26,418 nucleotides of DNA, from IMG/VR virus record IMGVR_UViG_3300037247_000644, positions 1 through 26,418 of that record. One strand, given 5' to 3'. Origin of the DNA: a virus. Below, one piece after another: positions 3,320 to 20,197 of this stretch. Below the pieces are notes generated by a model. It did not search any database and was not told where the DNA came from. It was given only the letters and a program-made list of their open reading frames with translations. The translations under genes were made by a program, and so were the position numbers. Numbering within the stretch: the first letter of the stretch is position 1; each line of letters begins with the position of its first letter.

Positions 3320-3529
3320 ATGACACAAAAAATATTATTCAATGCTCCTGACGATATGTACATGGCGCTTAAGTCTGAGTCAACAAAGCGACAAACGCCT
3401 ATGTCAGCGCTTATCCGGGTATCAATAGCTGAGTGGCTCGGGTATCAAGGATATGAGGTCACTAAGCATGTTGAATGGGGCGGCAAGCGCGACGGTCACA
3501 GCATTGACACCAACACCACAAATGACTAG
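3320..3529 (+). CDS. Ribbon-helix-helix DNA-binding protein
   Basis: A 69-residue protein of the Arc/CopG/MetJ class. A short beta strand (KILFNAP, residues 4-10) is followed by helix A (DDMYMALKSESTKRQ, 11-25) and helix B (TPMSALIRVSIAEWLGY, 26-42); a polar tail of about 27 residues follows. Such proteins dimerise through the strand, which inserts into the DNA major groove, and usually repress nearby promoters. Its position at the head of the rightward operon, next to repeats that overlap the divergent promoters, suggests autoregulation and control of the leftward operon. ATG 3320 is preferred over 3311 because 3311 lies inside the -10 element. Confidence 0.75.
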   Translation: MTQKILFNAPDDMYMALKSESTKRQTPMSALIRVSIAEWLGYQGYEVTKHVEWGGKRDGHSIDTNTTND

Positions 3530-3722
3530 ACTATCAATCATGCCCCGGCTTATCAGTTGCGTTGTGTACCCTTCATCGTTCCGCGAACTGATACAGGTAA
3601 CCGGGGCTTCTTTACCATCAATGGTCGACGGTACCTCCTTCCGTATCGACCTTGATCTTCCTGGCCGGTGTCCATCCTACCACCCTATCGGCAAACGACT
3701 GGTGCAGCAGACAATCCAATGA
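3522..3722 (+). CDS. Hypothetical 66-residue protein
   Basis: A short frame beginning MTRLSIMPRLISC, overlapping the end of the previous gene by 8 bases and ending in an ATGA junction with a tiny following frame. No Shine-Dalgarno sequence is visible, and no family is recognised. The overlap pattern is the main support; it may not be expressed. Confidence 0.35.
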   Translation: MTRLSIMPRLISCVVYPSSFRELIQVTGASLPSMVDGTSFRIDLDLPGRCPSYHPIGKRLVQQTIQ

Positions 3723-3787
3723 GTATAGTTAAACAAACACCGGCCAGGATTAAATCAGCGGGGGCAATCGTGAGCAATAATGGTTGA
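3719..3787 (+). CDS. Tiny ORF, 22 residues
   Basis: A 22-residue frame (MSIVKQTPARIKSAG...) starting in an ATGA overlap with the preceding frame and overlapping the following one. Basic and without recognisable features. It is listed only because the chain of overlaps continues through it. Confidence 0.2.
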   Translation: MSIVKQTPARIKSAGAIVSNNG

Positions 3788-3917
3788 GAAGCCACTAACG
3801 GTACAGAAGTACAAACGCGCAAAACGACAGTCGTACCGATGCTATCAGGGGTTGACAACTTTGATAGTCCGTAACGAGAGCAGTCAGCTCGCCCCCGCTG
3901 GTATAATATGGGGATGA
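3780..3917 (+). CDS. Small ORF, 45 residues
   Basis: A 45-residue frame with a basic N-terminal half (KYKRAKRQSYRCY). It overlaps the preceding tiny frame by 8 bases and its stop runs into the tRNA-like segment that starts at 3910. No clear ribosome site; no family recognised. Confidence 0.3.
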   Translation: MVEKPLTVQKYKRAKRQSYRCYQGLTTLIVRNESSQLAPAGIIWG

Positions 3918-3985
3918 CAGGTGAAGGCTGATTTGGTGCCTAATGACCCCAACCAGCAACGCGGGTTCGATTCCCGCCATCTCCA
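3910..3985 (+). ncRNA. tRNA-like element, possible attP core or relic
   Basis: GGGGATG at 3910-3916 can pair with CATCTCC at 3978-3984 (seven pairs, one G-T), followed by discriminator A at 3985. The span is exactly 76 bases, as in a tRNA. The T-arm is canonical: GCGGG, loop TTCGATT, CCCGC (3961-3977). The interior, however, does not fold into normal D and anticodon arms, so it is not a functional ordinary tRNA. Such a T-arm plus acceptor 3' end is what phages carry at attP when they integrate into a tRNA or tmRNA gene. A degenerate tRNA or a tRNA-mimic RNA are alternatives. The complementary strand encodes the 'MAGIEPA' string typical of false genes antisense to tRNAs. Confidence 0.45.
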
Positions 3986-4380
3986 CTGTATCCGAACCCC
4001 GGAACTCCCGGGTAGTAAGATACATCCGGTCCGTGTCACGTGGGCACCGCGTCACTAAGACGTAGCCTGGGGTGGAAATTCCCACACGTGGTAGTCTCCG
4101 ACAGGTTCCGAAGACAGTCGGCGAGACAGCATCAAGCAGGTGAGCGACCTGGATACGGACCGCTACTTTAATAAAGCAATAGACGCGGAAAAAGGTTCCT
4201 ACGGTTGCCCGAGTAATACGGGTCACAGACCCAGTCGCCAAGCCTCCAACGTTAGGCAAAGCCGTAAAGCAGTGGAAATTGTTGATATGCCGGTTGAAAT
4301 CCGGCCCGCGTAAATAAGCGATAGGCAGGACCGGCCCACGATACCCGTCGAATTCGACGGGGTTAGAATGAGGTGAAGGG
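3986..4380 (+). other. About 395 bases without a convincing gene, rich in hairpins
   Basis: No frame here has a credible start and family. Visible stems include CCCGG/CCGGG (3998-4012), CCGAC/GTCGG (4098-4121) and AGCG/CGCT (4143-4164). There is also a nested module at 4183-4311: ACGCGG pairs with CCGCGT and encloses TACGG/CCGTA (4200-4266), CCCG/CGGG (4208-4222), GCCT/AGGC (4242-4257) and a T-arm-like hairpin GCCGG-TTGAAAT-CCGGC (4289-4305). That hairpin abuts the closing strand, as in a tRNA. A frame at 4140-4316 (57 residues from a GTG) exists but has no ribosome site. The region may hold a structured RNA. Confidence 0.4.
4344..4361. promoter_or_regulatory. Perfect 18-base palindrome
   Basis: CCCGTCGAA followed by TTCGACGGG reads the same on both strands and sits 20 bases upstream of the methyltransferase start. 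It could be a repressor site or form an RNA hairpin; no T-run follows, so it is not a standard terminator. Confidence 0.45.
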
Positions 4381-4464
4381 ATGACGTTGATTCAAGGCGA
4401 TGCAATAAGGATACCATTGGCGGCGGGGAGCGTTCACTGTGTCGTGACCTCCCCGCCGTACTGA
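4381..4464 (+). pseudogene. N-terminal fragment of the DNA methyltransferase
   Basis: ATG 4381, behind GAGGTGAAGGG, opens a frame that reads MTLIQGDAIRIPLAAGSVHC then VVTSPPY and stops at TGA 4462-4464. This is the expected start of a beta-class N4/N6 methyltransferase, ending inside catalytic motif IV (S/D-PPY). The next residues of the motif, WGLRDYNL, are encoded at once in another frame (4466 onward). The break is a direct repeat of ACTG (4460-4463 and 4464-4467); removing one copy restores TSPPYWGLRDY and the full-length gene 4381-5716. Confidence 0.75.
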
Positions 4465-4486
4465 CTGGGGCCTTCGCGATTATAAC

Positions 4487-16985: not shown

Positions 16986-17328
16986 CCCATTGTGTAACTG
17001 GTGGGTTTGCGGTGATGAGGATGGACAGTTATTGACAGCAACCGCTGAGTTTATTGAGGATGCGGCTATTAAGTGGCGGTCAGAATCGCTTCGGGCGGTT
17101 GCCGTGCCAAAGGAGCTGGAGATTATGAATCCTATCCCAACACCGGACGAGAAGCCGATGACAAGCCAGGCGATCAGTATAAATAAATGTGTTGTTGGTC
17201 GATATATTATCCGTGCTGGTTTTTCACCTGATGATAATCTTTGGTTATATCACGACCAACTCTATCCAAATCCTGAGTACATTCCTGCTACACTAGAAGA
17301 CATGGCAGGAATATTTGACAGCAATTGA
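16957..17328 (+). CDS. Hypothetical 123-residue protein
   Basis: A protein of unknown function. Two similar halves are suggested by LIYDPLCNWWVCGDEDGQLL near the start and RAGFSPDDNLWLYHDQLYPN in the second half, each with a W-rich beta segment. ATG 16957 overlaps the membrane-protein gene. It is the last gene before the structured leader. Confidence 0.55.
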   Translation: MIPFIKLIYDPLCNWWVCGDEDGQLLTATAEFIEDAAIKWRSESLRAVAVPKELEIMNPIPTPDEKPMTSQAISINKCVVGRYIIRAGFSPDDNLWLYHDQLYPNPEYIPATLEDMAGIFDSN

Positions 17329-17353
17329 CAAAGAAACCATAAAAGTTTAGACT
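17325..17353 (+). promoter_or_regulatory. Candidate promoter of capsid operon
   Basis: TTGACA (17325-17330), 17 bases and TAGACT (17348-17353) form a moderate sigma-70 promoter. It lies across the stop codon of the previous gene, with the start expected near 17360, upstream of the hairpin leader. A TATACT just downstream (17353-17358) is at too long a spacing. Confidence 0.4.
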
Positions 17354-17370
17354 ATACTTCAGGTATATTC

Positions 17371-17396
17371 CCCGCCGTTGCTGCGGTGATGGCGGG
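17371..17396 (+). promoter_or_regulatory. Leader hairpin 1
   Basis: CCCGCC (17371-17376) pairs with GGCGGG (17391-17396) around a 14-base loop in the leader of the capsid operon. TATAC-TTCAG-GTATA just upstream (17353-17367) could form a second weak stem. Confidence 0.5.
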
Positions 17397-17421
17397 TAGG
17401 TATACTTAACAACTAAATAAG

Positions 17422-17441
17422 CCCCCTGGACCACCACCGGG
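17422..17441 (+). repeat. 20-base hairpin repeat, copy 1
   Basis: CCCCCTGGACCACCACCGGG, identical to 17456-17475. Each copy can form CCTGG/CCGGG (one G-T pair) closing a seven-base loop ACCACCA. Confidence 0.85.
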
Positions 17442-17455
17442 CGAACGGGTATCAA

Positions 17456-17475
17456 CCCCCTGGACCACCACCGGG
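17456..17475 (+). repeat. 20-base hairpin repeat, copy 2
   Basis: Exact second copy, 34 bases downstream. Its CCGGG end is also the 5' arm of the terminator at 17470-17505, so the two folds exclude each other. Confidence 0.85.
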
Positions 17476-17505
17476 TTAAGGATGAAAGTCCTCAGCCCGG
17501 TTTTT
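17470..17505 (+). terminator. Intrinsic terminator or attenuator before capsid genes
   Basis: ACCGGG (17470-17475) pairs with CCCGGT (17496-17501); AGGA-TGAAAG-TCCT forms an inner stem; a run of five T (17501-17505) follows. It is 15 bases upstream of the next gene, with a promoter and hairpins before it, as in attenuation or antitermination leaders. Confidence 0.7.
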
Positions 17506-17519
17506 GCGTTTATGGGGAA

Positions 17520-17780
17520 ATGACAGAATTAAATCATATGGCCTGTAGGAATCTAGAATCATCTGTCTTACATCAGGCGATAAAGGACGTGGCTTATGGG
17601 GCGCCAGAGCAAAGGGAACGGGCTCAGTGGTGGATTGCTGGTCCAAACGCAGATCACATAGCGGAACAACTAGGCATCACCAACTGGCCACCGGACGAAG
17701 ATTGCTACGATCGTGAACTAAAGGCGCATCTAAAACGCGGAGCGATACACATGGGGGTGAGTGATATATGGAGCCGTTGA
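17520..17780 (+). CDS. Hypothetical 86-residue protein
   Basis: A protein of unknown function, first gene after the capsid leader. The sequence SVLHQAIKDVAYGAPEQRERA followed by WWIAGPNADHIAEQLGI resembles many small phage proteins that contain a short helix and a W-W pair and seem to be linked with recruitment near virion genes. ATG 17520 follows GGGGAA; it overlaps the capsid gene by 13 bases. Confidence 0.55.
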   Translation: MTELNHMACRNLESSVLHQAIKDVAYGAPEQRERAQWWIAGPNADHIAEQLGITNWPPDEDCYDRELKAHLKRGAIHMGVSDIWSR

Positions 17781-20197
17781 AAGCAAGCAAAAGTAACGGG
17801 AGCCTAGAAGATGAACTATCAGAAATTGAGCGTGCGTTTCATCAGCAATATCCAAACAGAGAGACGCCGATAGAGGTCTATTCTTGGGTAGCTGAAACTC
17901 ATGATGACTACATTATTGTCAGCATGGATGACGGCTATTACAGAGTGAACTATTCAGGAAGCGGTGACGACATTGAGTTTGCAGAACGGGGAGAATGGCA
18001 AGAAGTTGAAAGAAACACCACATGGGAAGCCAAGCGTTTACGAAGATTGAAAACCCTGAAATTCATTAAAGCAGACGAGGACGAACTTCATCTGGACGGC
18101 TATCTGGCACTCTGGGGGGGAGTCGATTCCGATGGCGAGCATTTTACCACCGAAACCGACTTTGAGAGTAGCTATACCAGGACAGGACACCTTAATGTCG
18201 ATTGGGAGCATGGGTTGGAACCGGATGAAGAAGAAGACGGAACCAAGATATTGCAACCCAACCGCGATGATGTGCTCGGCTATGTGGAGTGGATGACGGC
18301 TCGAAAAGACGATATAGGCTTACTCGCCCGCCATGTTCTAGACCGCCGAGAAAGATACGTTAGCGAATTTGTTGAACCACTATCTAGGGCTGGGCTGATA
18401 GGCAGCTCGACAGAAGCTATCCAAACCAAGGTCAAGAAAAAAGAGGACGGCACGATAACCGTCTGGCCATTAAAACGACAATCAATCACAGTTATGCCGG
18501 CTGAATCCCGGCTGATGACTGACCAGCAATTATCTATTATCAAATCGTTGGCAGAGCAATACCCACACCTAAAGGCGTATGTTCCAAAGGCGGCCGGTAC
18601 AGCCGCGACGAACGACGCGACGGCAGAAGGCAAGCAAAAGCCACAATCAAATTCCAAAGGGGAGAGTAAGATGACTGAAATTAACGAGGAATTGGTGGCT
18701 AAGATCGCGGCTGATGCTGCGGCCGCAGCTGTCAAAGCAGAGCGTGAGGCGCGTGCTGCTGAAGAGAAAACGCGGGCTGAACTTGAAGCCCACGATAAAG
18801 AAGTAGTCGAGGCGGCTATCAAGGCTTATCAAGAAGCCAATCCGCCAGAGGACAAGTTCGGAACCAACGTCAACGTGGCCAAGAATAGTGAAGCATGGCA
18901 GTTCGATAACTACTCTGCTGATGACCTGGCCGCCGTACTTGAGATCGTTGGATCAGCTACCGGGCGCAAGTCTGGGCTGGTTGAAAAAAGCGAGGCACAA
19001 CGACCGGCGCTTGTTAAAACTCTAGCCCTTCGCCTGGAATCAGATGAGGCTAAGGACGAAAGTAAGGTGAACATTGGCGGCGGGCGTGAAATAGACGTAC
19101 CTGGCCCGCTCAAGATGGCCAGTCGAGCTATGAAGGCTGCCGGTGTTAAGGCCAATGAGCTGAACTATTCGACTAACGCCGGGTTTGGAGATGAGTGGAT
19201 TGGCGTAGCCTATGGAGGACAACTATGGGAGGCCGTTCGAGAATCGGCACCAGTTGTTCAGATGGTACCGCAATTTGAGTTTCCACCTGGCGCTGAATCA
19301 CTGGTTATTCCAGTTGAGTCAACCGACCCTATCTGGTATCTAGTAGCTGAAGCTGCTGATCCTGGCGCAACGACCAGATTGACCTATACCGTACCGGCGA
19401 AAGCAGTAGCAACCGCTTCCAAGACCATGACTCTATCCAAATTGGGTAGTTCAACGCTCTACACTGGCGAAATGGTCGAGGGGTCGGTGTTACCGTTCGT
19501 GTCACAGTTACGAGCCCAGATTACATTATCTGCCGGCGAGTACTTGACCCATTCCATTATCGATGGTGATACGGAGACAGGTGCATCAGCCAATGTCAAT
19601 GATATTGCTTCAACGCCCGTGGGTAATGAGGCTTTCCTGGCATTCAACGGTTTCCGCAAATCGCCACTTGTCACTACCACGGGCAACAGCCGTGACGGTG
19701 GCGTAATATCAAGTAGCGATTTCCTGGAGACAGTTAAACTGATGGGTGTTGGCGGCAAGGTAGGTTATGACCGTCGCCGCGTATCGTTCATCATTGACCC
19801 CAACGTTAATTGGAAAGTTCTTGAGCTGGCTGACGTGAAGACAAAAGACGTATTCACTAACGCCACCCTAGAAAGCGGTGAGCTAGTTCAAATCTATGGC
19901 TATCCGGTTATCGTGTCTTACCAGATGCACTTTGCAAGCGTCGGGGTAAATACTGGATACGAGTATAAAACCGAATCCAGCGGCAAGATCGACCTGAATA
20001 CCGCTTCAGACAATACCAAAGGCGCAATACTGGCTGTTCGGTGGGACCACTGGAGATTAGGTTTCCGACGTCGAATCACGACCGAAGTTGCACGTATTCA
20101 GCGAGCCGATTCATGGGATATCACATCCATGATGAGAGCAGGACTGGCGCAGCGGGATACCGAGGCGAGTTCGATTTCTTATAACTTGACAGTTTAA
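17768..20197 (+). CDS. Prohead protease - scaffold - major capsid fusion protein
   Basis: An 809-residue protein combining three head functions that are usually encoded separately. Residues 35-86 form a small N-terminal domain. Residues 105-250 resemble the HK97-type (S78) prohead protease: candidates for the catalytic His (VDWEH, 148), Ser (LIGSSTEAI, 213-214) and an acidic residue near MPAE (246). Residues 302-360 form an Ala/Glu-rich coiled-coil scaffold (delta-like) domain. Residues about 370-809 match an HK97-fold capsid protein, with WIGVAYGGQLWEAVRESAPV, FEFPPGAESLVIP and a C-terminal RWDHWRLGFRRRITTEV. It would be cut by its own protease. ATG 17768 follows GGGGGTGAG; a second start inside is listed separately. 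Confidence 0.8.
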   Translation: MEPLKASKSNGSLEDELSEIERAFHQQYPNRETPIEVYSWVAETHDDYIIVSMDDGYYRVNYSGSGDDIEFAERGEWQEVERNTTWEAKRLRRLKTLKFIKADEDELHLDGYLALWGGVDSDGEHFTTETDFESSYTRTGHLNVDWEHGLEPDEEEDGTKILQPNRDDVLGYVEWMTARKDDIGLLARHVLDRRERYVSEFVEPLSRAGLIGSSTEAIQTKVKKKEDGTITVWPLKRQSITVMPAESRLMTDQQLSIIKSLAEQYPHLKAYVPKAAGTAATNDATAEGKQKPQSNSKGESKMTEINEELVAKIAADAAAAAVKAEREARAAEEKTRAELEAHDKEVVEAAIKAYQEANPPEDKFGTNVNVAKNSEAWQFDNYSADDLAAVLEIVGSATGRKSGLVEKSEAQRPALVKTLALRLESDEAKDESKVNIGGGREIDVPGPLKMASRAMKAAGVKANELNYSTNAGFGDEWIGVAYGGQLWEAVRESAPVVQMVPQFEFPPGAESLVIPVESTDPIWYLVAEAADPGATTRLTYTVPAKAVATASKTMTLSKLGSSTLYTGEMVEGSVLPFVSQLRAQITLSAGEYLTHSIIDGDTETGASANVNDIASTPVGNEAFLAFNGFRKSPLVTTTGNSRDGGVISSSDFLETVKLMGVGGKVGYDRRRVSFIIDPNVNWKVLELADVKTKDVFTNATLESGELVQIYGYPVIVSYQMHFASVGVNTGYEYKTESSGKIDLNTASDNTKGAILAVRWDHWRLGFRRRITTEVARIQRADSWDITSMMRAGLAQRDTEASSISYNLTV
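18657..18673 (+). promoter_or_regulatory. Internal ribosome site for scaffold-capsid portion
   Basis: AAAGGGGAG (18657-18665) followed by ATG 18671 lies within the fusion gene, in frame (codon 302), at the junction of protease and scaffold domains. It would give a separate 508-residue scaffold-capsid protein, so capsid subunits could be made in excess over protease. Confidence 0.65.

Follow-up and report, generated by a model that had tools for sequence, protein, structure and literature searches.

A gene that fuses a prohead protease to a capsid protein raises the question of how its parts can be supplied in unequal amounts, since such a fusion seems to impose one protease per shell subunit. 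The window analyzed here, a 26,418-nucleotide stretch of viral DNA (the 26.4-kb IMG/VR virus record IMGVR_UViG_3300037247_000644), carries terminase, portal, and neck genes upstream of a single frame at positions 17768 to 20197 that is open over 809 codons and has a predicted product of 89.0 kDa; this frame and all of its features described below lie on the plus strand. A sequence-only reading of the window had proposed that protease, scaffold, and capsid are encoded together in this frame, as a departure from the HK97-like norm, and that an ATG with a strong Shine-Dalgarno (SD) site at codon 302 marks the protease/scaffold border. Such a second start, where it is conserved, removes the problem of the fixed ratio and predicts simple control of the protease dose through translation initiation.

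Protease, scaffold, and capsid in one frame

The capsid parts of the window gene and of its nearest relative, L002 (47% identical), were aligned and used in a family search that returned 56 viral-contig loci, while a search of genome contigs found no relative. After removal of near duplicates, 38 genes (window included) were fused and 5 were split, such that 37 of the 42 further IMG/VR relatives carry the fusion; a search with the protease part alone returned no relative. Capsid-part identity to the window falls to 18 to 20% within this family. The window protein alone matched nothing in Pfam, NCBIfam, or the PDB, its sole match being PHROG 267 ("major head protein"), but the family alignments did match. 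Phage_capsid (PF05065) was found by Pfam search in 20 of the 34 aligned members and Peptidase_S78 (PF04586) in 11 of the 34, with a best value of 1.1e-23 and with the window protein itself unmatched, and the family also matches PHROG families for the head maturation protease, the major head protein, and a "major head and protease protein."

The protein opens with an extra domain (residues 1 to 95, positions 17768 to 18052) that forms a separate alpha/beta segment in the model and resembles the N terminus of the Virus Rctr41k fusion (27 of 78 residues identical). By eye, the ~80 N-terminal residues encoded in this segment also resemble those of L036; Pfam has no name for the domain. The prohead serine protease domain follows (residues ~96 to 260, positions 18053 to 18547), with D120, H148, and S214 invariant across the 35 sequences of the protease-part alignment; H148 and S214 (and D120) are presumably catalytic. 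A linker of low model confidence that is not conserved in the alignments (18548 to 18670) then leads to a scaffold- or delta-like segment (residues 302 to 454, positions 18671 to 19129) and to the HK97-like major capsid domain (residues 455 to 809, positions 19130 to 20194), for which the family profile matches the solved capsid 5tjt (1.1e-16). AlphaFold2 modeled the protease and capsid parts with mean pLDDT values of 76 and 81, respectively. The capsid-part model begins with a predicted 51-residue helix (its residues 6 to 56), as expected for a scaffold domain, and its predicted secondary structure is consistent with an HK97-fold major capsid protein. A protease and an HK97-like capsid domain are therefore found in one unbroken frame, and between them the model places the helical scaffold-like segment that a protease-scaffold-capsid fusion gene should have. 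The open frame and the family profile matches bear out the proposal of a single 809-codon gene. Its product starts with an N-terminal domain, followed by a serine-type prohead protease and a helical scaffold segment, and ends in an HK97-like capsid protein.

Codon-usage scores preferred frame 0 throughout the linker up to the ATG of codon 302 and gave no hint of a switch, which makes a frame error unlikely. Both of the other frames stop right at this codon: a TAA (18667 to 18669) stands out of frame immediately before the internal ATG, and a TGA (18672 to 18674) lies in the third frame, so that one indel in the linker would be enough to give two separate genes. The capsid genes of the split relatives start at or near the aligned position of codon 302. 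In L002, L017, and L059, the protease stop and the capsid ATG share bases as ATGA; in L023 the stop lies just 5' of the ATG, and the protease frame of L011 ends ~690 bases upstream of the capsid start. On the capsid-part tree the split genes fall within the fused ones, and at least three changes of state are required; the split forms may have arisen by a single indel in the linker. With the homologs mostly fused and no break in the frame, neither a frame error that joined two genes nor a family of uniformly separate genes describes this locus. The protease-scaffold-capsid fusion is natural and the rule in the family, not an assembly error.

A probable internal start at the protease/scaffold border

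The full-length start of the window gene is preceded by the SD-like site GGGGGTGAG (17753 to 17761, read from the sequence), with a duplex energy of −9.7 kcal/mol. The internal site, AAAGGGGAG (18656 to 18664), is separated by 6 nucleotides from the ATG of codon 302 (18671 to 18673), from which a product of 508 amino acids with a predicted mass of 54.7 kDa would be made. At −8.3 kcal/mol, its SD:anti-SD duplex is surpassed among in-frame ATGs by that of the first start alone and equals or beats those of most neighboring structural genes; the known internal start of lambda Nu3, taken as a control, scored −7.4 by the same measure. An SD of this strength is nevertheless not rare in the window sequence alone, arising in 27% of synonymous resamplings with the amino acids fixed, and the case for a restart therefore rests on the family.

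Across the family, the alignment column of codon 302 holds a start codon in 35 of the 38 fused genes (34 ATG and 1 GTG), even though the linker before it does not align. When every alignment column was scanned for a start codon with a duplex energy of −5 or lower, this column had 29 such sequences and the next best had 7. The median SD energy at the junction was −6.9, versus −2.5 at other in-frame ATGs (Mann-Whitney p = 1e-14), and the junction SD was stronger than in synonymous resamplings of the preceding codons (Wilcoxon p = 8e-8); these p values overstate independence, as the sequences are related, although the depth of divergence (identity down to 18%) limits the concern. For the energy comparison, the junction ATGs of L038, L039, and L046 were assigned manually; the column counts are independent of that assignment. 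Energies of −6 or lower were found at 24 of 35 junction starts, against 7.4 ± 2.2 expected and a maximum of 15 in 1,000 synonymous resamplings, and a chance SD, weakly tested by the window gene, is thus excluded at the family level. A few fused relatives (L009, L010, and L051) have a weak junction SD or lack one. The capsid core has a conserved methionine as well, Met455, but a restart at it is unsupported, as the SD is weak there (−3.3; −5 or lower in 7 of 20).

The SD core is not tied to one codon phase: each of the three is represented (in 17, 9, and 8 sequences), mostly at 5 to 9 nucleotides from the start, and the residues before the methionine vary (KGESK, TSEENE, NLRGVK, KLQEEA). An SD found in every phase, within a linker that is not conserved, points to selection on the nucleotides and not to a peptide motif. 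An internal restart at codon 302 is probably functional, on strong comparative evidence, and both its conservation and its SD strength support the border that had been placed there. Surveyed across the homologs, as the sequence-only reading had proposed, the fusion and the internal ribosome site are both the common state; the family thus has an in-frame SD-start at the protease/scaffold border, as lambda does in C/Nu3.

Two probable products from one gene

We favor, with a probability of roughly 0.75, a fusion gene with two starts that would give a full polyprotein and a scaffold-capsid chain, of which the long form may bring the protease into the procapsid. Initiation at 17768 would produce the 89-kDa protease-scaffold-capsid chain, and initiation at the internal SD-ATG (18671) would produce the 55-kDa scaffold-capsid chain. 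As the scaffold and capsid parts are present in both, the two chains would be expected to assemble together through them. The scaffold of HK97 is fused to the N terminus of the capsid protein and projects into the procapsid (PMC10275583), and in HK97 (genes 4 and 5), as proposed here, the N-terminal scaffold domain of the capsid protein is removed by a dedicated protease (PMC10275583, PMC8508860). With the scaffold N terminus facing the interior, the protease of the long chain would lie within the shell and cut off the scaffold and itself there, and its dose would depend on how often each start is used relative to the other. We infer that both products are made, as well as their ratio, the excess of scaffold-capsid chains, the coassembly, the delivery of the protease, and the cleavage; the case for excess and delivery is one of analogy, since HK97, unlike the window, has separate protease and capsid genes and supplies its protease from one of them.

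Four other explanations were weighed against this scheme. A base lost or gained in the linker of the contig could have joined genes that are truly separate, as they are in L002, L017, and L059. The existence of five split relatives, three with the ATGA overlap at this very codon, the stops of the other frames at the ATG, and the AAAA (18636) and GGGG (18659) runs in the linker would all suit such an error, but 37 other relatives are fused and codon usage keeps frame 0 across the linker, and we consider it highly improbable. The internal SD-ATG might instead be an unused relic of an older, separate capsid gene, with only the full polyprotein made and then cut. Split relatives do exist, and the site could predate the fusion; however, it has been retained through the deep divergence of the capsid parts while the surrounding linker has not, its SD is stronger than synonymous expectation and appears in all codon phases, and an unrelated group of fusions swaps ATG, GTG, and TTG at one site. 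A relic is therefore unlikely, if the least so of the four.

The methionine and its surroundings could also be conserved for a reason at the protein level, such as self-cleavage of the protease from the capsid, as the position is a domain boundary at which a cut is expected. This explanation appears very doubtful given that the residues before the methionine vary widely, that the SD is retained whichever of the codon phases it falls in, and that in the other fusion group the start codon can be one for M, L, or V. The short product might, lastly, be made from a separate mRNA with a promoter within the protease part instead of by internal initiation. Such an mRNA is compatible with a restart, since the internal SD-ATG would serve either message, but a scan of positions 17300 to 18760 for sigma-70-like promoters found no site inside the fusion gene; the only one, at 17325, lies upstream of the gene, and the count did not exceed that of shuffled sequences. 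There is thus little reason to expect a separate message here.

Fusions and internal start sites in other phages

While the fusion that the sequence-only reading described is real, it is not the exception that the reading took it to be, as such genes have been published in several phage groups and a PHROGs family for them exists. Fusions of protease and capsid, or of protease, scaffold, and capsid, have been reported in clusters EE, EL, AN, AX, FE, CW, and DM and in RRH1 (PMC7302621), fusions of the same kind in actinophage clusters AM and AU (PMC5513430), and a protease-scaffold-capsid fusion in MD8-like Pseudomonas phages (PMC8508860). The actinophage fusions (EE, EL, AM, AU, AN, AW, DJ, and Rhodococcus phage RRH1) thus resemble the window in having a protease, a scaffold, and an HK97-like capsid in one gene (PMC7302621, PMC5513430), and no sequence relation between them and the window protein was detected in a search of the phage collection. 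The internal start goes unmentioned in these three papers (PMC7302621, PMC5513430, PMC8508860); our literature search covered few subscription journals, and novelty is unproven. The fusion is of a known kind, and, as far as we could check, a conserved internal start has been described for none of these fusions, the precedent being lambda C/Nu3. Like the window gene, the lambda protease-scaffold gene has an in-frame internal start that, according to its annotation, yields the scaffold alone (Shaw and Murialdo 1980, as cited in PMC8508860). Lambda encodes its capsid protein E separately, whereas the restart in the window would yield scaffold and capsid together.

We examined 24 published fusions, namely 12 from one homologous group, 10 from a small-genome group, Rctr41k, and F10. 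All 12 genes of the homologous group (AU/AM/AW/DJ/EL/Streptomyces/Lactococcus) have a start codon at one conserved position (8 ATG, 2 TTG, and 2 GTG), with energies of −6.4 to −11.7, and M, L, and V codons interchange there. In the published fusions L062, L065, L067, L071, L072, and L073, another strong SD-start (ATG or GTG, about −8 to −12) is found upstream of the conserved one; many members of the group have such an upstream site, which may be a nested restart. The small-genome actinophage fusions are mixed, with a clear internal site in EE, RRH1, GMA5, and McGonagall and weaker sites or none in the others. The search from the small fusions of Gordonia, Rhodococcus, and Arthrobacter phages led to the fusion gene of one Pseudomonas phage only, L080 (OR067381, "Pseudomonas phage Hadban"), whose stated host may merit checking.

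Gene 30 of Virus Rctr41k encodes an 871-residue "putative phage capsid protein and protease" whose 80 N-terminal residues are related to those of the window protein, and its internal ATG at codon 293 has an energy of −8.5; similarity of its protease and capsid parts to the window protein was not detectable by BLASTP. Gene 5 of Pseudomonas phages MD8 and F10 is, like the window gene, a single protease-scaffold-capsid gene, but its protease part is similar to ClpP and lambda gpC and not to S78 (PMC8508860). The internal start of F10 is ambiguous, as its longest frame has strong SDs at both codon 245 and codon 280.

A restart at the border may be a general rule of phage protease-capsid fusions that has arisen or been kept in several unrelated lineages, possibly with two nested restarts in one group, that sets the protease dose, and whose site would permit a switch between fused and split genes by a single indel; we give this generalization an even chance. 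In genes annotated as "major capsid and protease fusion," one or more additional products have probably escaped annotation. Among culturable phages with a fused gene, Arthrobacter phage ScienceWizSam (gp14) has the conserved site at Met306 and another strong candidate at Met241, and the site in Lactococcus phage P162 is TTG 251.

Two smaller observations concern the protease end of such proteins. The 516-residue "major capsid protein" chain of PDB entries 9sz9 and 9sza, on which our literature search found no paper, has a weak N-terminal match to the protease profile (E = 0.064) and is perhaps another capsid-protease fusion. Some relatives of the window gene carry a 2'-5' RNA ligase/LigT-type 2H phosphoesterase domain (PF13563; E values down to 3e-16) N-terminal to the protease (L044, positions 3342 to 4475; L052, 3198 to 4526; L047, 3282 to 6047), where it would end up inside the procapsid, and in L052 this domain has a weak match to the anti-CBASS protein Acb1.
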